This document shows positions 25,026 to 34,020 of a DNA stretch of 64,000 bases, piece after piece (within the stretch, counting starts at the first letter, position 1; every line of letters begins with the position of its first letter). The notes beneath the pieces are model-generated. The model was given only the letters and a program-made list of their open reading frames with translations, did not search any database and was not told the origin of the DNA. The stretch is from Pseudooceanicola marinus (GTDB taxonomy: Bacteria; Pseudomonadota; Alphaproteobacteria; Rhodobacterales; Rhodobacteraceae): positions 62,001-126,000 of the forward strand of contig NZ_JAIVMC010000001.1 in assembly GCF_020177265.1 (NCBI RefSeq), read 5' to 3'. Made by a program: the position numbers and the translations under genes.

Positions 25026-26282
25026 TTGCCGCTGACGGGCCAGAAAATCGCGATCATCGGGGCCGGAATCGGCGGGCTCGCCGCCGCGCGGGCGCTTGCG
25101 CTGCGCGGCGCCGAGGTCACGGTGCTGGAGCAGGCGGAGTGCATCCGCGAGGTGGGTGCTGGTCTTCAGATCAGCCCCAATGGCGCGGCGGTGCTGCGCG
25201 GCCTGGGCCTGCGGCCCGAGCTGTTCGGCATGGCCAGCGACGGGGTGCGTCTGGTCGATCACCACGGACGCACGGCGCTGCGCATGGATCTGGGCGGGCT
25301 GCCCGATCGCAACGGCTATTTCTTCTGTCATCGCGCCGACCTGATCGCCGCGCTGGCCCATGGGGCGCGCAAGGCGGGCGCCCGTGTCCGACTGCTGCAA
25401 CGGGTCGAGGACGTGGTGACGGGCGAGGCGCCCGAGATCCACATTGCCAACCGGGCGCGCATGCGTCCGGCGCTGGTGGTCGGCGCCGACGGGCTGCATT
25501 CGCGCCTGCGCGCGGCGATTCTGGGCGACGGCCGGGCCAGCTTCACCGGCCAGGTCTGCTGGCGCGCCGTGGTGCCCGCCGCGCCCGACGACCCGAAGGG
25601 CGCCGAGGCGCGCGTCTACATGGGGCCGGGGCGTCACCTGGTCAGCTATCCGCTGCGCGGCGGGGCGCTGCGCAACATCGTGGCGGTCGAGGAGCGCCGC
25701 GAATGGGCCCCCGACAGCTGGAGCCACGAGGACAACCCCGACAACCTGCGGCGCGCCTTCGCCGGCTTCTGCCCCGAGGTGCAATCGCTTCTGGAACGGG
25801 TCAGCCGGGTCAATCTCTGGGGCCTGCACCGCCACGAGGTCGCGCCGAAATGGTACGATGGGCGCACCGCGCTTCTGGGGGATGCGGCCCATCCGACACT
25901 GCCCTTCCTGGCCCAGGGCGCGAACCTGGCGCTGGAAGATGCCTGGGTTCTGTCAGAGACATTGGCCGAGGGGCTGGGTGGTGCCGCGGGGCCGGAGGCG
26001 GCGCAGGCCGCTATAGGGCCGGCGCTGGAACGCTATCAGCAGGCGCGCCGCGACCGGACGCGCCGAGCGATTCAGGCGGCGAACCGCAATGCCTGGAAAT
26101 ATCACCTGCGTTTCCCGCCGCTGCGCATGGCGGCCCATGCCGCGCTGCGCCTCGGCGGCAAGGTCGCGCCCGGCGCGATCCTGCATCAGTTCGATTGGCT
26201 TTACGGCCATGACGTTACCGGCGGCCAGCGCCTGGCCGCCGATCTGGACTGCCCGGTGTCAGAGGGCGATCTCTGCCCATAG
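25026..26282 (+). CDS. FAD-dependent monooxygenase (salicylate hydroxylase-like)
   Basis: Group A flavoprotein hydroxylase of about 418 residues. The FAD-binding Rossmann motif is IAIIGAGIGGLAAARAL at the N-terminus, DG is in LVVGADGLHSRLRA, and the second FAD motif is ALLGDAAHPTLPFLAQGANLALEDA. The start is uncertain: TTG at 25026 has AGGAG 9 bases upstream and puts the Rossmann strand at the N-terminus, while an ATG at 24996 has no ribosome site. The substrate is probably an aromatic acid (inference). The 3' end overlaps the convergent exonuclease III gene by 24 bases. Confidence 0.9.
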   Translation: MPLTGQKIAIIGAGIGGLAAARALALRGAEVTVLEQAECIREVGAGLQISPNGAAVLRGLGLRPELFGMASDGVRLVDHHGRTALRMDLGGLPDRNGYFFCHRADLIAALAHGARKAGARVRLLQRVEDVVTGEAPEIHIANRARMRPALVVGADGLHSRLRAAILGDGRASFTGQVCWRAVVPAAPDDPKGAEARVYMGPGRHLVSYPLRGGALRNIVAVEERREWAPDSWSHEDNPDNLRRAFAGFCPEVQSLLERVSRVNLWGLHRHEVAPKWYDGRTALLGDAAHPTLPFLAQGANLALEDAWVLSETLAEGLGGAAGPEAAQAAIGPALERYQQARRDRTRRAIQAANRNAWKYHLRFPPLRMAAHAALRLGGKVAPGAILHQFDWLYGHDVTGGQRLAADLDCPVSEGDLCP

Positions 26283-27068
26283 GGGCACGTGATCCGACGG
26301 CTTCTGCCGGCCGCGGATCTCGGCGTCGATGCCGCAATCGGTCACCAGATCCGCGCATTGCGGGGTCATCAGCATGTGATCGATGCGGATCCCGTCGTTC
26401 TTCTGCCAGGCGCCGGCCTGGTAATCCCAGAAGGTGTAGTGACCCGGGGCAGGGTGCCGGGTGCGGAAGATCTCGGTGAAGCCGAGGTTCTGGATGCGGC
26501 GGAAGGCGGCGCGGCTTTCGGGGCGGAACAGCGCGTCCTCGCGCCATTTCTCGGGCTTGGCGGCGTCCTCCGCCTGCGGGATGATGTTGTAATCCCCCAG
26601 CATCACAGCCGGTTCCTCGGCCGCCATCAGCTCCTCGGCGCGGGCGCGCAGGCGCTCCATCCAGGCCAGCTTGTAGGCATATTTGCCGCCCTCCACGGGC
26701 AGGCCGCTTTCCGTCAGCTCGACCGGGTTGCCGTTCGGCAGGTAGAGGCCGCAGATCCGCAGCGCGTCCTGCTCGCCCACCACCGTCGCCTCGATCCAGC
26801 GCGCCTGTTCGTCGTCCTCGTCGCCGGGCAACCCGCGCGTCACGTCTTCCAGCGGCAGTTTCGACAGGATGGCGACCCCGTTGAAGCTCTTCTGGCCATG
26901 GGTTTCGACCTGGTAGCCGCGCTCCTCGAACAACTCGCGCGGGAAACCCTCGTCCACCGACTTGATCTCCTGCAGGACGGCGACATCGGGCTGCGCCTCG
27001 TCCAGCCAATCCATCAGCGCCTGTGCCCGCGCCTTGATGCCGTTGATGTTGAACGTGGCCAGTCTCAT
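26259..27068 (-). CDS. xth: Exodeoxyribonuclease III
   Basis: AP endonuclease / 3'-5' exonuclease of base-excision repair. The 269-residue protein starts MRLATFNINGIKAR and has the catalytic motifs LQEIKS (Glu), GDYNIIP (Asp/Asn), and the C-terminal SDHVPL (Asp-His). IRIDHML and YTFWDYQAGAWQKNDG fit XthA. The ATG at 27068 was chosen at the family start; the frame stays open upstream as non-coding sequence. Convergent with the FAD monooxygenase, 24-base overlap. Confidence 0.95.
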   Translation of the reverse strand: MRLATFNINGIKARAQALMDWLDEAQPDVAVLQEIKSVDEGFPRELFEERGYQVETHGQKSFNGVAILSKLPLEDVTRGLPGDEDDEQARWIEATVVGEQDALRICGLYLPNGNPVELTESGLPVEGGKYAYKLAWMERLRARAEELMAAEEPAVMLGDYNIIPQAEDAAKPEKWREDALFRPESRAAFRRIQNLGFTEIFRTRHPAPGHYTFWDYQAGAWQKNDGIRIDHMLMTPQCADLVTDCGIDAEIRGRQKPSDHVPLWAEIAL

Positions 27069-27500
27069 GTCGGGCAACCCTTTTCTCTTTCCTTGCTGAC
27101 GGGAAAGCGCAACTCTGAGGTCCATGTGTGGCCCCGAACCTGTGCGCCCGGCGCGCTGGCGGCCGGGCATCCCGTCTCTGCCGCTTTGTGGGTCTTTGTG
27201 CGGTCTCTGTCCAGACGGGTTGCGTCTGCGCCTGCACGGGCACGATTCGGCGCGGGCATATCGCCGCTCGGCGAATCCCGGTTGTGTGTTCTCCCAATGT
27301 TCCGAATTTTTCCGGCAAGTGAAATAACTTGTCAAAATTTCGGCAGTTCATTGTTGTTTATACCGAAACAATACCTTGGAACTCGAAGTTATTGTGAGTA
27401 ACTTTCGCTTGACACGGTTAAATTGAAAATTGTGTTTTGCGAACACGAAATGCGTGCAAGCGTTCTGGCATCGTCCTTTCTTTTCAACGACTTGGAGAAC
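27069..27500. other. Intergenic region upstream of the repeat-protein unit
   Basis: These 432 bases separate xth and the repeat-protein gene, which diverge. The right half (27290-27450) is markedly AT-rich for this genome. It contains a perfect -35 hexamer TTGACA (27409-27414) with only a weak -10 (TGTGTT) 16 bases on, and an inverted repeat TTGTTT/AAACAA (27354-27359 with 27366-27371). These probably form the promoter and an operator for the downstream unit. Confidence 0.5.
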
Positions 27501-28022
27501 ATGATGTCTGCCGTTCGTAAAACTTCCGTCGCCACCTCCGCCGCTGTTGCCGCGTCCCACACCCTGCTGGAGGGCGATGCCGTCGAGATGTTCACCTCCG
27601 GCTCCGCTCCCGCGCTGCAGGGCGACCTGATGGGCGGCGAAGGCCTGGACATGTTCACCTCCGGTTCGGCGCCTGTGGCCACCGACACCACCGCAGGGGA
27701 TGCCGTCGAAATGTTCACCTCGGGCTCGGCTCCGATGACCTCGGACGCCGTCGCCGGTGATGCGGTGCAGCTCTTCACCTCCGGTTCCGCCCCGATGGCG
27801 ACCGATGCCGCCGCAGGCGAGGCGGTCGAGGCCTTCACCTCCGGGTCCGCTCCGGTGACCTCCGAGGCCGCCGCAGGCGATGCGGTGGAGATGTTCACCT
27901 CGGGCTCTGCGCCGGCCGCCGCCGCCGGCGATGCCGTCGAGGCCTTCACCTCCGGCTCCGCTCCGGCCTCCTCCGAGGTTGCCGCCGGTGACATGGTTCA
28001 GGCCTTCACCTCCGGCAGCTAA
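27501..28022 (+). CDS. Eight-repeat FTSGS protein, possible multi-core precursor
   Basis: A 173-residue protein that I cannot place in a named family with confidence. After an N-terminal leader of about 25 residues (MMSAVRKTSVATSAAVAASH...), it is built from eight units ending in FTSGS (Phe at 31, 52, 72, 92, 112, 132, 149, 169). The usual unit is G(D/E)AVE(M/A)FTSGSAP followed by a variable seven-residue linker. The last FTSGS is the exact C-terminus. There is no Cys, Trp or Tyr, and no membrane segment. GGAG lies 5 bases before the first of two ATGs. Invariant short cores, variable spacers and a leader are compatible with a modified multi-core peptide or a multivalent binding scaffold; neither is shown. 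Next gene lies 129 bases downstream. Confidence 0.85.
   Translation: MMSAVRKTSVATSAAVAASHTLLEGDAVEMFTSGSAPALQGDLMGGEGLDMFTSGSAPVATDTTAGDAVEMFTSGSAPMTSDAVAGDAVQLFTSGSAPMATDAAAGEAVEAFTSGSAPVTSEAAAGDAVEMFTSGSAPAAAAGDAVEAFTSGSAPASSEVAAGDMVQAFTSGS
27573..28022 (+). repeat. Tandem 60-base coding repeat
   Basis: The eight FTSGS units recur mostly every 60 bases (one unit is 63 bases and one 51). The core is written TTCACCTCCGGCTCC or close synonyms, while linkers differ in both bases and residues. Synonymous variation in the cores argues for selection on the peptide and not a recent DNA expansion. Confidence 0.9.
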
Positions 28023-28079
28023 GACGCTCTGACCGAGCAACTTGCCCGGACCGGGCAGGGGAGCGGCAGAGAGGACGCC

Positions 28080-28139
28080 TTCCGTCTGATTGTTGCCGAC
28101 CCGATGGCGCCGCCACCAGGTGCCGACGATCAGACGGAA
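28080..28139 (+). promoter_or_regulatory. Long hairpin between repeat protein and next gene
   Basis: A 16-bp stem (28080-28095 with 28124-28139, two G-U pairs in RNA) encloses a 28-base loop. Its 3' arm runs into the GGAAAGGA ribosome site of the following gene. A short TGCCC/GGGCA hairpin lies just upstream (28043-28057). No T run follows, so control of translation or mRNA stability is more likely than termination. Confidence 0.5.
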
Positions 28140-28151
28140 AGGATCCGACCC

Positions 28152-29270
28152 ATGTCGAATGTCGTTCAACTGACCTTCCCCGCCCGGAGCCAGGGCCGGG
28201 CCGCGCGCCGCGCGGCCCTGCTCGACCGTTTCGCCCGTGAACGCCGCTCGCAGGAGGACGTTTTCTGGCTGAAGGAAAATGCCGAGGTTCTGAACATCCT
28301 TGAAAGCACCGGTCAGACCCTGGCGTCAGGGGATCTGCCCGACGGGGCGCTGGCGCCCTACGCGGATATCTACGAGACGCTGGAAAAGCGCCTCGGGTTC
28401 TTTCCGCAATACTATCGCTTCTACCTGTCCCTGGCCCTCGACCTGGAGGCGCTCGGCATGGCCGGCGACAAGGCTGCGGCCATGGTGCACTGGGCCCGGG
28501 CCGAGGGTCTGGCAGAGGCCGAGCTGTCGGACCTGCAACGCGCCGAGGCGCGGCGGCTGATGCTGCGCCGGGGCATCGACCCCTCTGGCAGCCGCGCGGA
28601 GTCGGAGGCGCTGACGGCGCGGCTGATGCGGTTCATCTCGCGTCCCGCGACCTTCATGCTGCCCAACAAGAAGGCCGCCTACGAACTGACCCATATCGTC
28701 TTCTACCTCAGCGAGTATGGACGGAAATCCGTACAATTGCCCCGATCGGCCAAGGAAAGCCTTAACTTTGCCGGAACGCTCGCCTACCTTGACCTCAATG
28801 CGGACCTGCTGGCCGAGATCTGCGTGGCGATGCGCCATGCGGGGATGACGCCCCCGGACACCTGGGAAGGCTGGCTGAGCCGTGAAACGAACGGGTTCAC
28901 CGTCGACGCATGGGAGGGCGCGATGGCGCATGATGGGTATCACGAGTTCCTCGTGAGCAACTGGGCGATGGCCACCGCCGGACGCGGAGAGGTCTTCCGC
29001 CAGGCCGTCCCGGAGGGGCGGGTGACCTTCCACGCCGCACCACGCCCGATCGGCCCGCTGCGCCGCATGTCGCAATGCCTGCTGGAGATGGACGCCGCCC
29101 GCTCCGCTGACTGGACCCGGATGGAGGCGCCGATCTGCGAGGCGCTGGCCGATGATGCCGCTCTTGCCCACCTCGACCGTGCCACCCGCGCCTGCGCCGA
29201 TTTCGAGACCTTCTTCGCCGGCTTCGCCCGCGCTGGTCTCGTGGCGCCCCAGCAGAGGGCCCTTGCGTGA
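28152..29270 (+). CDS. Unrecognised 372-aa protein linked to FTSGS repeat gene
   Basis: Family not recognised. The 372-residue protein looks soluble and mainly helical, begins MSNVVQLTFPARSQGRAARRAALLDRFARER, and has no signal peptide or membrane helix. Notable segments are LEKRLGFFPQYYRFYLSLALDLEALG, FMLPNKKAAYELTHIVFYLSEYG and AYLDLNADLLAEICVAMRHAG. It has few cysteines and no obvious nucleotide-binding or catalytic motif. HIVFYLSEYG and the spaced His residues could bind metal, but this is weak. The ATG is preceded by GGAAAGGA. It overlaps the transporter gene by four bases (GTGA), so the two proteins are made together; modification or handling of the repeat protein is inference from position. 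Confidence 0.85.
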   Translation: MSNVVQLTFPARSQGRAARRAALLDRFARERRSQEDVFWLKENAEVLNILESTGQTLASGDLPDGALAPYADIYETLEKRLGFFPQYYRFYLSLALDLEALGMAGDKAAAMVHWARAEGLAEAELSDLQRAEARRLMLRRGIDPSGSRAESEALTARLMRFISRPATFMLPNKKAAYELTHIVFYLSEYGRKSVQLPRSAKESLNFAGTLAYLDLNADLLAEICVAMRHAGMTPPDTWEGWLSRETNGFTVDAWEGAMAHDGYHEFLVSNWAMATAGRGEVFRQAVPEGRVTFHAAPRPIGPLRRMSQCLLEMDAARSADWTRMEAPICEALADDAALAHLDRATRACADFETFFAGFARAGLVAPQQRALA

Positions 29271-30247
29271 CGGAACTGAAGACCCAGAAACTGACCCTGG
29301 CAAAGAAGGCGACCCTTGGCGGGGTCGCCCTTGTCATGATTTACACCGCGCTGATTTCCTCGGCCGATGCGATCACCAAGTTCCTGGCTGGCGGCTATGC
29401 CGCGCCGCAGCTTTACGTGATCTCCGGCATGCTGGTCGCCGCCTTCTGCCTGGTGACAGAACGGGTGAAGGGCGGCCGTGACGGCGTGATCCAGGCCATC
29501 CGGACCCTGCGCCCGGTGGAAATGGCCGTACGGTCCATCGCCACGGTGCTGGCCTCGGTCTGCTATTTCTATGCCTTCAAGCTTCTGGATTTCGCCGAGG
29601 TGTTCATCTTCATCGGCTTGATGCCGATCTTCGCCGGGCTGATGTCCGGCCCGATCCTGGGGGAGAAGGTGACGACCGCGGTCTGGTTCGCCCTGGGGGC
29701 CGGGTTCGTCGGTGTCGTCTGCCTTTTCCCGAACGGGATCCATGGCATGTCTCCCGGGCATCTGATCGCTTTCGGCGCCACCGCCTCGGGCACGCTTTCG
29801 ATGGTCATGGCCCGGCGCATCGGCCAGTTTGAAAGCAACGCCTTGGCGCAGGTCTTCTGGCCGAATGCTACGCTGGCCGTGGTCATGGCGGTGGCGCTGC
29901 CCTTCGTCTACAGGCCGATGTCGGCTCACGACCTCTTCTGGGTCGGGGCCTATGCCGCCTTCCTGTTTTTCGCCCGCTGGGTGCTGGTGGTGGCCTTGCG
30001 CAACCTCGCGGCCTACGTGGTCACCCCGCTGATGAACCTGCAATTCGTCTGGATGGTGATCCTGGGCAGCGTCGTCTTCGGGGAACGGACCGGGGCCAAT
30101 ATCGTGTTGGGGTCCGCCATCGTCATCGGATCAGGGCTTTACCTGATATATGACCAGCTGGCGCGCGGCAGGGTCGTGCGCAGCGGTGGCTACAAGACCC
30201 TGGCCGCCGTCGACGCGGGCAGCAAACCGACCGCGCCGGCGGAGTAG
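29267..30247 (+). CDS. DMT-superfamily (EamA) transporter
   Basis: A 326-residue integral membrane protein with about ten hydrophobic segments in two EamA repeats (for example YTALISSADAITKFLAGG in the first and VVTPLMNLQFVWMVILGSVVFGE in the second). This is the usual drug/metabolite transporter architecture. The start is GTG, overlapping the stop of the previous gene. Placement as third gene of the repeat-protein unit makes it a candidate exporter for whatever the unit makes; DMT proteins carry small molecules, so export of an intact 173-residue protein is unlikely. Confidence 0.9.
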   Translation: MTELKTQKLTLAKKATLGGVALVMIYTALISSADAITKFLAGGYAAPQLYVISGMLVAAFCLVTERVKGGRDGVIQAIRTLRPVEMAVRSIATVLASVCYFYAFKLLDFAEVFIFIGLMPIFAGLMSGPILGEKVTTAVWFALGAGFVGVVCLFPNGIHGMSPGHLIAFGATASGTLSMVMARRIGQFESNALAQVFWPNATLAVVMAVALPFVYRPMSAHDLFWVGAYAAFLFFARWVLVVALRNLAAYVVTPLMNLQFVWMVILGSVVFGERTGANIVLGSAIVIGSGLYLIYDQLARGRVVRSGGYKTLAAVDAGSKPTAPAE

Positions 30248-30797: not shown

Positions 30798-32009
30798 ATG
30801 CGCGCGCGCTATGCCTCCGATCCCGCCCTCTCCCGCGGGCGCCTCTATCCGGAAGAGGAAAGTGCCTTCCGCTCCTGCTTCCAGCGGGACCGGGACCGGA
30901 TCATCCATGCCTCGGCCTTCCGCCGGCTGAAGCACAAGACACAGGTCTTCATCGAGCATGAGGGCGACTATTTCCGCACCAGGCTGACCCATTCGATCGA
31001 GGTGGGCCAGGTGGCGCGCACCATCGCCGGCGCCCTGAACCTGAACCAGGAGCTGACCGAAGCCGTGGCCCTGGCCCATGACCTGGGCCACACGCCCTTC
31101 GGCCACACCGGCGAGGATGCCCTGCATGAGCTGATGGCACCCTATGGCGGCTTCGATCACAACGCCCAGGCGATCCGGATCGTCACCAACCTGGAACGCA
31201 CCTACGCGGAATGGGACGGGCTGAACCTGACCTGGGAAAGTCTGGAAGGCATCGCCAAGCACAACGGCCCGGTCGAAGGGGCGGTGCCCGTCGCCCTGGC
31301 CGAATACAACGCCCGCCACGACCTGGAACTGCACACCCATGCCAGCGCCGAGGCCCAGGTGGCGGCGCTGTCGGACGACATCGCCTACAACAACCACGAT
31401 CTGCACGACGGGCTGCGGGCGGAGCTGTTCTCGACCGACGAACTGGCCGAGCTGCCGATCCTGAAGGGCTGTTTCGCCGAGGTGGATCGCCTGTACCCCG
31501 GGTTGAACTACTACCGCCGCCGGCACGAGGCGCTGCGCCGGTTCTTTGGGGTTCTGGTGGGAGACGTGATCGACGTCAGCCGAGCCAACCTGGAGGCGCT
31601 GAACCCGGCCAGCGTGGAGGAGATCCGCAATGCGGGTCGCCCCATGGTGCAGTTCTCGCCGCACATCTGGTCGGACCTGAAGGTGATCCGCGAATTTCTC
31701 TTCCACCGCATGTACCGCGCCCCCGAGGTGGTGGAGATGCGCAAGAAGGTCACCCGGATCATCATGGAGCTCTTCCCGATCTTCATGGCCCATCCCGAGT
31801 ACCTGCCCAAGCAATGGCGCAAGGATGTCGAGGAGATCGAGGGCGACGAGATGAAGCTGGCGCGCATCGTCTGCGACTACATCTCCGGCATGACGGACCG
31901 CTTCGCGATCGTCGAACATGCCCGCATCACTGGCATCGACCCGGAGCCGGGCCTGCGGGCCTCTGGCCCGGGCCATATCCGCTACGCCGACCGCGTGGCA
32001 GAGGACTGA
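30798..32009 (+). CDS. dgt: dNTP triphosphohydrolase (Dgt family)
   Basis: HD-domain phosphohydrolase that removes triphosphate from dGTP and other dNTPs. The 403-residue protein shows FRRLKHKTQVF, the HD-domain ligands in RLTHSIEVGQ and ALAHDLGHTPFGHTGE, and the distal YNNHDLHDG. The length fits the shorter alphaproteobacterial Dgt type and not the 505-residue E. coli enzyme. A shared bidirectional terminator separates it from yjhX. Confidence 0.95.
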   Translation: MRARYASDPALSRGRLYPEEESAFRSCFQRDRDRIIHASAFRRLKHKTQVFIEHEGDYFRTRLTHSIEVGQVARTIAGALNLNQELTEAVALAHDLGHTPFGHTGEDALHELMAPYGGFDHNAQAIRIVTNLERTYAEWDGLNLTWESLEGIAKHNGPVEGAVPVALAEYNARHDLELHTHASAEAQVAALSDDIAYNNHDLHDGLRAELFSTDELAELPILKGCFAEVDRLYPGLNYYRRRHEALRRFFGVLVGDVIDVSRANLEALNPASVEEIRNAGRPMVQFSPHIWSDLKVIREFLFHRMYRAPEVVEMRKKVTRIIMELFPIFMAHPEYLPKQWRKDVEEIEGDEMKLARIVCDYISGMTDRFAIVEHARITGIDPEPGLRASGPGHIRYADRVAED

Positions 32010-32495: not shown

Positions 32496-33974
32496 TTAGG
32501 CGTGGGCGCGGGCCGCTTCAAGAGGCCCGCTGTCCGCGAGGGCCGACACGCTGGCTGGCTGCGGCAATTGGGCCACGGTCGCCTCGCCCGGGGTGAGGGC
32601 CTGCGCCGGCTGCAACGGCTGGTGGTTCTTGCGATGACGTAGCTGCATCCGGCGACCGCGCTTACCCGCGACCAGAGGACGCGCGGCGGGCAGGCTTTCG
32701 CCCTCGGCCAGACGACGCAGCAGGTCGGGGAACAGGGCGGCCAGTTCCGCCCGCGCCGCCGGGCTGAGCGACCGCAGCGCCTGGGGGCCGAGGTAGAGGC
32801 TTTCGGCGGCGGCGCCCTCGGCCTCGATCACCTCGTGCCCGTCAAAGACCAGGTGGTGATAGCTGACCGCGCCCTCGGGCGTGCCCAGGGTGACGCCCGG
32901 CAGGCCGACCAGGTGCTTGGCGGCGATCAGGATCTCCTCGGCGCCGAACATCCGCTGGGCGATACGCGAGTGGACCAGCATGCGGTGTTGCTGGCTGACC
33001 GACAGGTCCCGGGCGGGCACACCGGGGCCGAGGGCGCCGGCGCGGATCTGCACCGGGCAGAGGTTCGGCTGTTTTGCCAGGCGGCTGGCGGCGACGTGCG
33101 TCGCGGCATGCCAGCGCAGGGGTTGTGGCCCGTGGTCCAGCGTCATCACCAGGTCACCGGGCGCCAGGTCTTCCACTGGGCGGGGGCCGTCGGGCGTGGC
33201 GATCAACGTGCCGGCGGTGAAACAGGGCGGCGCGGTGGAGGTGAAGGCCCCTTCGCCGATCATCAGCGCGGAATCGTATTTGGCGTCGTTGAAATCGGCC
33301 ACCACGATCTTCAGCGTGTAGGTCTTGCCCGCCTCGACCTCCAGCGTCAGGTGCCCGGTCTTGATGGCGTTGAAATCGGTGTTGTAGCGCAGCCAGTCGT
33401 CGGTATCGCCGTTGTTGCGGTAGGGCCCGTTCTCCATCGAGTTCAGATTGAAATAGCCGCCCTCCTGGTGGCTGATCGGCAGCAGTTCCATGTTGTTGCC
33501 GTTCTCGTCGCCGAGGAAGACGGCGGCACTGTCCGAGTATTCGCTGCCGTAGTAGACTGGGTATTCATCGGTCAAAAAGGTCAGCGGCACGGTGTAGGTC
33601 CCGCTTTCGGTCGCGGTGAAGTTCAGCTCGATCCCCGCGGCGTCGTAGGACCGGGCGCTGCCCGGCACGACCTCCTCGATGTCGCGATCACGGCCCTGGT
33701 CCCAGTCCCAGTCATTGTGCATGTCGGTGCTGAGGTGGTCGTTGTGGTTGTCGCCCCAGCCCGCGTTGAAATCCTCGGCCCGCCCGGTGGAGAAGATCAC
33801 GCCGGTGTCGCCCGGCGTCGCGTCCCGTGCGACGTCATCGCCATTGGAATAGGTGCGCGTCTGCGCCGAGGTTCCGATCAGGTCGGCCGAATTGACCTTG
33901 ATTCCGCTGTCTGCGCCGAAAAGAAGCTCTGCGATGGTCTTGGCGCTCTCGGAGGAATAATCGAGATCCGACAT
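32496..33974 (-). CDS. Choice-of-anchor / Hint-domain secreted protein
   Basis: A 492-residue protein with two parts. Residues 1 to about 245 form an acidic Asp/Asn-rich beta domain (GVIFSTGRAEDFNAGWGDN, LTFLTDEYPVYYGSEYSDSAAVFL, LEVEAGKTYTLKIVVADFND), like choice-of-anchor L domains of surface proteins. A Hint (Hedgehog/intein-like) domain begins at PCFTAGTLIATPDGPRPVEDL with Cys at about residue 252. The last 60 residues are Ala/Pro-rich and basic. There is no classical signal peptide, which fits type I secretion. Hint domains can self-cleave at the Cys; whether this one does is unknown. The weak ribosome site (AGAAAG) lies after an AT-rich leader. Confidence 0.85.
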   Translation of the reverse strand: MSDLDYSSESAKTIAELLFGADSGIKVNSADLIGTSAQTRTYSNGDDVARDATPGDTGVIFSTGRAEDFNAGWGDNHNDHLSTDMHNDWDWDQGRDRDIEEVVPGSARSYDAAGIELNFTATESGTYTVPLTFLTDEYPVYYGSEYSDSAAVFLGDENGNNMELLPISHQEGGYFNLNSMENGPYRNNGDTDDWLRYNTDFNAIKTGHLTLEVEAGKTYTLKIVVADFNDAKYDSALMIGEGAFTSTAPPCFTAGTLIATPDGPRPVEDLAPGDLVMTLDHGPQPLRWHAATHVAASRLAKQPNLCPVQIRAGALGPGVPARDLSVSQQHRMLVHSRIAQRMFGAEEILIAAKHLVGLPGVTLGTPEGAVSYHHLVFDGHEVIEAEGAAAESLYLGPQALRSLSPAARAELAALFPDLLRRLAEGESLPAARPLVAGKRGRRMQLRHRKNHQPLQPAQALTPGEATVAQLPQPASVSALADSGPLEAARAHA

Positions 33975-33997
33975 GGTGACTGACTTTCTGCTCAGTA

Positions 33998-34020
33998 AAA
34001 TTAACCATTTTGGCTAATTT
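33998..34020 (-). promoter_or_regulatory. AT-rich inverted repeat upstream of Hint-protein gene
   Basis: AAATTA and TAATTT arms with partial inner pairing (CC/GG) surround ATTTT, 24-46 bases upstream of the Hint-protein ATG, within the most AT-rich 60 bases of this interval. It could be an operator or part of an AT-rich promoter. Confidence 0.35.

Follow-up and report, generated by a model that had tools for sequence, protein, structure and literature searches.

The window, a 64,000-nucleotide stretch of DNA from the alphaproteobacterium Pseudooceanicola marinus, contains a repeat array gene that is followed by a gene for a DUF6902 protein and a gene for an EamA-family transporter. Coordinates are collected in Table 1. 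Inspection of the 172-residue array polypeptide reveals the pentapeptide FTSGS at residues 30, 51, 71, 91, 111, 131, 148, and 168 (start at 27504). An earlier note on this DNA had described eight FTSGS units with the last as the exact C terminus. Reading of 27504-28022 bears this out, as it does the stated spacing (21, 20, 20, 20, 20, 17, and 20 residues); the protein ends on the serine of the last core and a TAA stop follows directly. When the letters of the array protein were shuffled 10,000 times, the highest count of any pentamer was at most five, as against eight for FTSGS, and the array was also reported by Tandem Repeats Finder.

Table 1. Positions in the window of the array gene, its cores, and the surrounding genes.
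Feature	Position	Strand	Basis
Endonuclease/exonuclease/phosphatase gene, upstream of array	26259-27068	-	Pfam
GGAG, possible ribosome-binding site of array gene	27494..27497	+	Read in sequence
Array gene, leader and eight FTSGS units, 172 aa	27504..28022, stop included	+	ORF read in sequence
Leader, residues 1-23 of array protein	27504..27572	+	Alignment with 67 relatives
Core 1 FTSGS	27591..27605	+	Sequence
Core 2 FTSGS	27654..27668	+	Sequence
Core 3 FTSGS	27714..27728	+	Sequence
Core 4 FTSGS	27774..27788	+	Sequence
Core 5 FTSGS	27834..27848	+	Sequence
Core 6 FTSGS	27894..27908	+	Sequence
Core 7 FTSGS	27945..27959	+	Sequence
Core 8 FTSGS, exact C terminus	28005..28019	+	Sequence
DUF6902 protein, 372 aa, proposed core-modifying enzyme	28152..29270	+	Pfam, 482.5 and 78.3 bits; all-helical model
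His181 codon, [TS]HxxFY motif, proposed catalytic residue	28692..28694	+	Conserved; common to DUF6895
Asp218-Glu222 codons (DLLAE), shared with DUF6895	28803..28817	+	Alignment
Asp261-His264 codons (DxYH), Y-H shared with DUF6895	28932..28943	+	Alignment
EamA-family transporter, GTG start overlaps DUF6902 stop	29267..30247	+	Pfam, co-occurrence, synteny
HD-domain gene, downstream	30798-32009		Pfam

The gene start had been placed at 27501. The ATG there is an alternative that would yield MMSAVRK, but the ATG at 27504 is preferred because it lies at a better distance from the GGAG and gives the M(S/T)A beginning seen in relatives. The array proteins of relatives begin M(S/T)A..K, with Met1 invariant and Lys6 nearly invariant in the leader alignment, and leader and core lie in one ribosomal precursor, the arrangement by which RiPPs are recognized. 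Each of the seven internal cores in the window is followed by AP at the start of the linker. The G(D/E)AV(E/Q) stretch that had been described before the core is present in six of the eight units, the other two reading GEGLD and GDMVQ. Likewise, codon variation within the core holds for codons 3-5, which differ synonymously (TCC/TCG; GGC/GGT/GGG; TCC/TCG/TCT/AGC), but not for codons 1 and 2, TTC and ACC throughout. The array protein has no NCBIfam name and no Pfam match over cut-off, its leader contains no strongly hydrophobic signal-like stretch (best 12-residue hydropathy mean 1.13), and reading of the sequence revealed no dibasic pairs between the eight cores. The AlphaFold2 model of this protein is strand-rich, with a mean pLDDT of 58.5, a pTM of 0.47, and no residue at 90 or above.

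The downstream protein belongs to DUF6902 (PF21843; 482.5 bits, curated cut-off 27) and, over residues 24-241, also to DUF6895 (PF21836; 78.3 bits, cut-off 23.8). Sixteen positions are invariant in 91 DUF6902 proteins: R31, W39, E42, Y88, E124, S126, D127, R130, R157, P171, L179, G190, D261, F351, F358, and R360. Two histidines are nearly invariant, and His181 is kept in 100 of 102 proteins. The AlphaFold2 model is confident (mean pLDDT 95.0, pTM 0.93), consists almost wholly of helices, and has no strong match in the PDB.

DUF6902 was found in 82 of the 295 sampled genomes of the window's family (∼28%). One locus (L104) was cut at a contig start and left out, and in 79 of the remaining 81 assessable genomes an array lies upstream of DUF6902 on the same strand. 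Of these arrays, 75 were found by regular expression, and those of L079, L090, L099, and L101 were recovered by reading, as were two further arrays that the expression missed, in L129 and L130. The latter two loci come from the phylum-wide sample, and both carry arrays, with units GEGTQFSTSSFGP; in that sample, DUF6902 was present in 7 of 398 genomes, all in the window's family. An array is also upstream in all 21 named loci found by a DUF6902 scan of genome contigs. The locus set contains two duplicate pairs, L003/L049 and the window/L022. The gap between array and DUF6902 is less than 150 bases except in L032 (345), L087 (270), and L098 (494). Outside the window's class, genome L133 carries a three-unit array (GxGTELxGCYT) together with DUF6902 and an EamA protein 37% identical to that of the window. 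A plasmid-borne system was considered and rejected, as tblastn with DUF6902 gave no match at E 1e-5 in 72,556 plasmid records.

Co-occurrence was assessed with a two-unit repeat profile, derived from arrays that neighbor DUF6902 and liable to miss arrays with unlike units. It matched 76 of the 295 genomes, 75 of the 82 with DUF6902 and 1 of the 213 without; the 75 matches arise partly by construction, since the profile was trained on paired arrays, and only the 1 in 213 is an independent test. That sole match (G046, L160) is weak (E 2.4e-4), contains an internal stop, and is either a relic or chance. The only assessable genomes with DUF6902 and no array are L085 and L102, and of 102 DUF6902 proteins, theirs alone have His181 replaced (by Arg and Gln; Fisher p 3e-4). 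The L102 protein is very divergent (branch of 6.3 in a quick tree). That His181 is lost exactly where the array is absent is an independent hint, from a small sample (n = 2), of one shared activity.

The earlier note took loss of FTSGS among homologues to speak against a multi-core precursor. FTSGS as such is indeed not what is conserved, relatives having FSSGS, FTSGA, FTSGL, FTSSL, FTSWS, FVSWS, FTNWC, FCSAS, FTTSM, and others; yet the core swaps run through whole arrays, and change of this kind favors the precursor idea. Within a protein, core positions 2-5 carry that protein's own majority residue in 98.8-99.4% of 651 units from 90 loci, a regex-anchored count that lets core positions 1 and 3 vary only within broad classes, admits only cores with F, Y, or V in first place, and drops out-of-register matches. 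Between loci, about 36 different majority pentapeptides were found among 96 (37 less one register artifact, L095). The number of nearly identical cores in one protein ranges from 2 to 20. Sister DUF6902 proteins in a quick tree accompany different cores: FTSGA and FTSCA in L010/L056 (support 100), FSSGS and FSSGA in L016/L053 (support 99), and FSSGS and FTCGL in L041/L055 (support 96). A genome of the same genus as the window (G192, locus L080) carries FASGS twelve times.

The comparison of selection on core and linker, proposed earlier, separated the two. When units were compared within proteins (82 loci), pN/pS was 0.106 for the core and 0.863 for the linker, a comparison that favors the core, since units were picked for agreeing with the majority core at 4 of 5 positions. 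Given that pS was similar in both parts (0.54 and 0.62, respectively), the low core value argues that selection holds the amino acids and that recent duplication is not the whole cause. At a core pS of ∼0.54, recent duplication of the DNA is thus unlikely to explain the uniform cores by itself over the whole set; the arrays of L024 and L080 do look recently expanded. The linkers are almost free to change. Other elements of the unit are fixed: the glycine six residues before the core is identical in 97% of within-protein comparisons, F or Y opens the core, and P often stands two residues after it. Of 597 intervals between units, 550 measure 20 or 21 residues (269 and 281) and 15 measure eight; a spacing of 13 also occurs. 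Of 96 arrays, 66 end exactly on a core; among the remaining 30, 27 have 2-9 residues after the last core, and 16 of these belong to the FxSWS/FTNWC group.

Four arrays (L065, L077, L078, and L079) are mixed, with two core types per protein (e.g. FSTSC with FSSGS), and are possible intermediates of core replacement. In L029, L035, L050, and L089, doubled cores lie only eight residues apart (e.g. FTSGLVQMFTSGL), a hint that V/T-x-M-F-core is the minimal unit. Array matches are split over two contigs in G053 (C8/C31), G250 (C4/C13), and G027 (C6/C20), some at contig ends; assemblies seem to break inside arrays, and the copy numbers of these three genomes may therefore be underestimates. The loci make testable how all copies of an array change jointly while synonymous sites stay diverged.

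The window EamA protein scored 55.2 bits against the Pfam cut-off of 28.2. Homologues at E ≤1e-50 were found in 61 of the 82 genomes with DUF6902 and none of the 213 without, five of which have weaker matches (1e-40 to 1e-47); 21 of the 82 have no match at 1e-50. Over 72 loci, the window included, the cluster to which the 26259 gene belongs recurs in 67, that of the HD-domain gene in 66, and that of EamA in 49, and beyond the 26259 gene lie a FAD-binding monooxygenase-type gene and a DksA-like gene. The recurring gene order indicates that the cassette sits in a conserved chromosomal interval. Among the conserved neighbors of the 72 loci, where the clusters identified were those of the window, there was no receptor gene and no protease gene traveling with the cassette. 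At an otherwise conserved place in the window, the minus-strand gene at about 32499-34013 is rare, just 3 of the 72 loci having a relative of it.

Within the 129 bases that separate array and DUF6902 in the window (28023-28151), two strong hairpins can form (-66.9 kcal/mol), possibly a local attenuator, and the L001 spacer is similar (z -3.67). As a general feature behind the array gene, RNA hairpins find no support: the median z was -0.83, and 23 of 88 spacers fell below -2 (20 shuffles each, simplified swap scheme).

Among the seven window proteins scanned with Pfam, between 24308 and 32006, there was no lasso cyclase or leader peptidase, no ATP-grasp ligase of the kind that marks graspetides, and no lanthionine enzyme. 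The ester or dehydration chemistry suggested in the earlier note finds no support, and the one lead on chemistry is epimerization, by way of DUF6895. Alignment of DUF6902 with three DUF6895 proteins gave an hhalign probability of 93.6 (E 2e-7, 185 columns). Small multi-core-like ORFs lie directly upstream of DUF6895 in three loci: two related ORFs in L125 (5104-5703) with tails GSSTGALVGRWYVYV and GGSAGSLVGPWFVLA, one ORF in L126 (7440-7868, minus strand) with the related tails AGPWYIYKE and VGPWFVLKE, and one in L127 (5200-5682) with the tails DWTFVSPNYVYKGS and DWTFISHNYVYKGS. In L128 (5112-5402), a single 97-residue ORF without a repeat occupies this place. These ORFs are possible precursors of further DUF6895-linked peptides; the four tested matched no Pfam family. 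The DUF6895-like proteins of L135 (712-1842) and L136 (minus strand) are ∼355-377 residues long, with a hydrophobic N-terminal stretch and a C-terminal part that matches DUF6895, and the flanks examined held no obvious array. The array expression also found none in L131, L132, L134, L137, L138, and L139, which have weak or partial DUF6895 matches.

It is probable, as the earlier note proposed, that the array serves as precursor to a peptide modified by an enzyme. The idea gains from the pairing with DUF6902, the homology to DUF6895, the multi-core-like ORFs beside DUF6895, and the selection on core versus linker; FTSGS itself is not the conserved part. We infer that DUF6902 may be a dedicated enzyme acting on the array. 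The explanation we favor, and hold to be rather likely, is that array and DUF6902 locus form a multi-core RiPP-like family in which the array is modified, perhaps epimerized, by DUF6902. The array would be translated as the precursor of a RiPP-like peptide product, and DUF6902 would recognize the leader, the constant G(D/E)x(V/T) motif that precedes every core, or both, and modify the cores with tolerance for most core sequences. With constant flanks, the core would be free to change, as is observed. Given an enzyme-modified precursor, the chances for and against C-alpha epimerization appear evenly balanced; it is the most likely modification by analogy with DUF6895, with His181 and His264 and their Asp/Glu partners as candidate acid/base residues. 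A general protease would cut the linkers, freeing many copies of one short peptide and so amplifying the product per translation, and the EamA protein would export it, which on the same premise is fairly likely. Chemistry, excision, export, and function of the product are inferred.

Much the same precursor logic would apply if DUF6902 excised, cyclized, or otherwise changed the core, or if the product were an unmodified peptide serving as a genome-specific signal, such as the repeat-encoded fungal mating factors. The cores, uniform within and diverse between genomes, do resemble pheromone-type repeat proteins as excerpted from PMC7329392; but the recurrent neighbors identified above include neither receptor nor protease, and the DUF6895 homology points to epimerization, leaving this alternative unlikely, if still of some weight. 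It is improbable that the array is a multivalent docking scaffold with DUF6902 as a helical binding partner and not an enzyme. Identical motifs in a multivalent array and an all-helical partner model would suit a scaffold, as would the top Foldseek rows for that model, which are helical-repeat proteins (none with E ≤0.001), but replacement of whole arrays across ∼36 cores is hard to fit with a fixed docking surface, DUF6902 retains polar invariants and two nearly invariant histidines, and loss of His181 coincides with loss of the array. The regular 20/21 spacing and the strands modeled with low confidence within units (pTM 0.47) could hint at a folded, beta-solenoid-like repeat protein with a structural role, but the low pLDDT, the nearly neutral linkers, proline in some cores (FPSGS, FPSWS), units only 8 or 13 residues apart, and the leader lacking a strongly hydrophobic signal-like stretch make this very improbable.

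If the modified-precursor reading is true, a two- or three-gene cassette in ∼28% of the sampled family genomes (82/295) makes a genome-specific short peptide, two Pfam families of unknown function (DUF6902 and DUF6895) gain a role, and DUF6902 is a helical enzyme able to modify many different peptide cores, the loci amounting to a natural experiment in which about 36 cores are offered to one enzyme family. The fuller version is tentative and rather less likely to hold than to fail: a large undescribed multi-core RiPP class, served by one enzyme superfamily (DUF6902/DUF6895), that makes genome-specific short peptides with D-amino acids, each in many copies, in this share of the sampled family and has their sequence exchanged again and again throughout the array. 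Such a class would parallel, in bacteria, the repeat-encoded pheromones and toxins of fungi, with enzyme, leader, and exporter retained.

A search of the open-access literature found nothing on DUF6902 or this array, and DUF6902, DUF6895, and DUF6749 together surfaced there in a single paper, among its references. Judged by title and opening of the abstract, none of the matches listed for Roseobacter RiPPs, multi-core precursors, EamA proteins, or epimerases describes the array system. The nearest known system is that of Shi et al. (ACS Catal. 2026, 10.1021/acscatal.5c08590), whose title, as cited in PMC13352647, names a DUF6895 family epimerase in lasso-peptide modification. The columns of H181, D218/E222, and Y263-H264 are common to DUF6895 and DUF6902, but epimerase activity of DUF6902 is proposed by analogy, no lasso enzyme occurs among the seven window proteins scanned, and a long repeat array takes the place of the single-core lasso precursor. 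MslH, the epimerase of the lasso peptide MS-271, likewise acts on a ribosomal precursor and, in the excerpted account (PMC10406935), has a calcineurin-like fold that contains Ca(II) and uses two His/Asp pairs. DUF6902 keeps two histidines and Asp/Glu residues but is predicted to be almost entirely helical, and might thus fit MslH-like chemistry in another fold. The third cassette gene is a member of the EamA (DMT) transporters, peptide export by this subfamily being putative. In the excerpts of PMC7329392, fungal Kex2-processed repeat proteins comprise ustiloxin-type RiPPs and mating factors, carry many copies of one core with repeats diverse between organisms, and in 22% of cases have a DUF-named tailoring protein encoded nearby. 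They have an ER signal peptide and Kex2 sites, whereas the bacterial array has no clear signal peptide and, in the window, no dibasic pair from the first core to the last, and its partner is DUF6902. The logic of the locus is RiPP-like; what is new here is a repeat array as substrate, DUF6902 as its one partner, and the replacement of cores across whole arrays.
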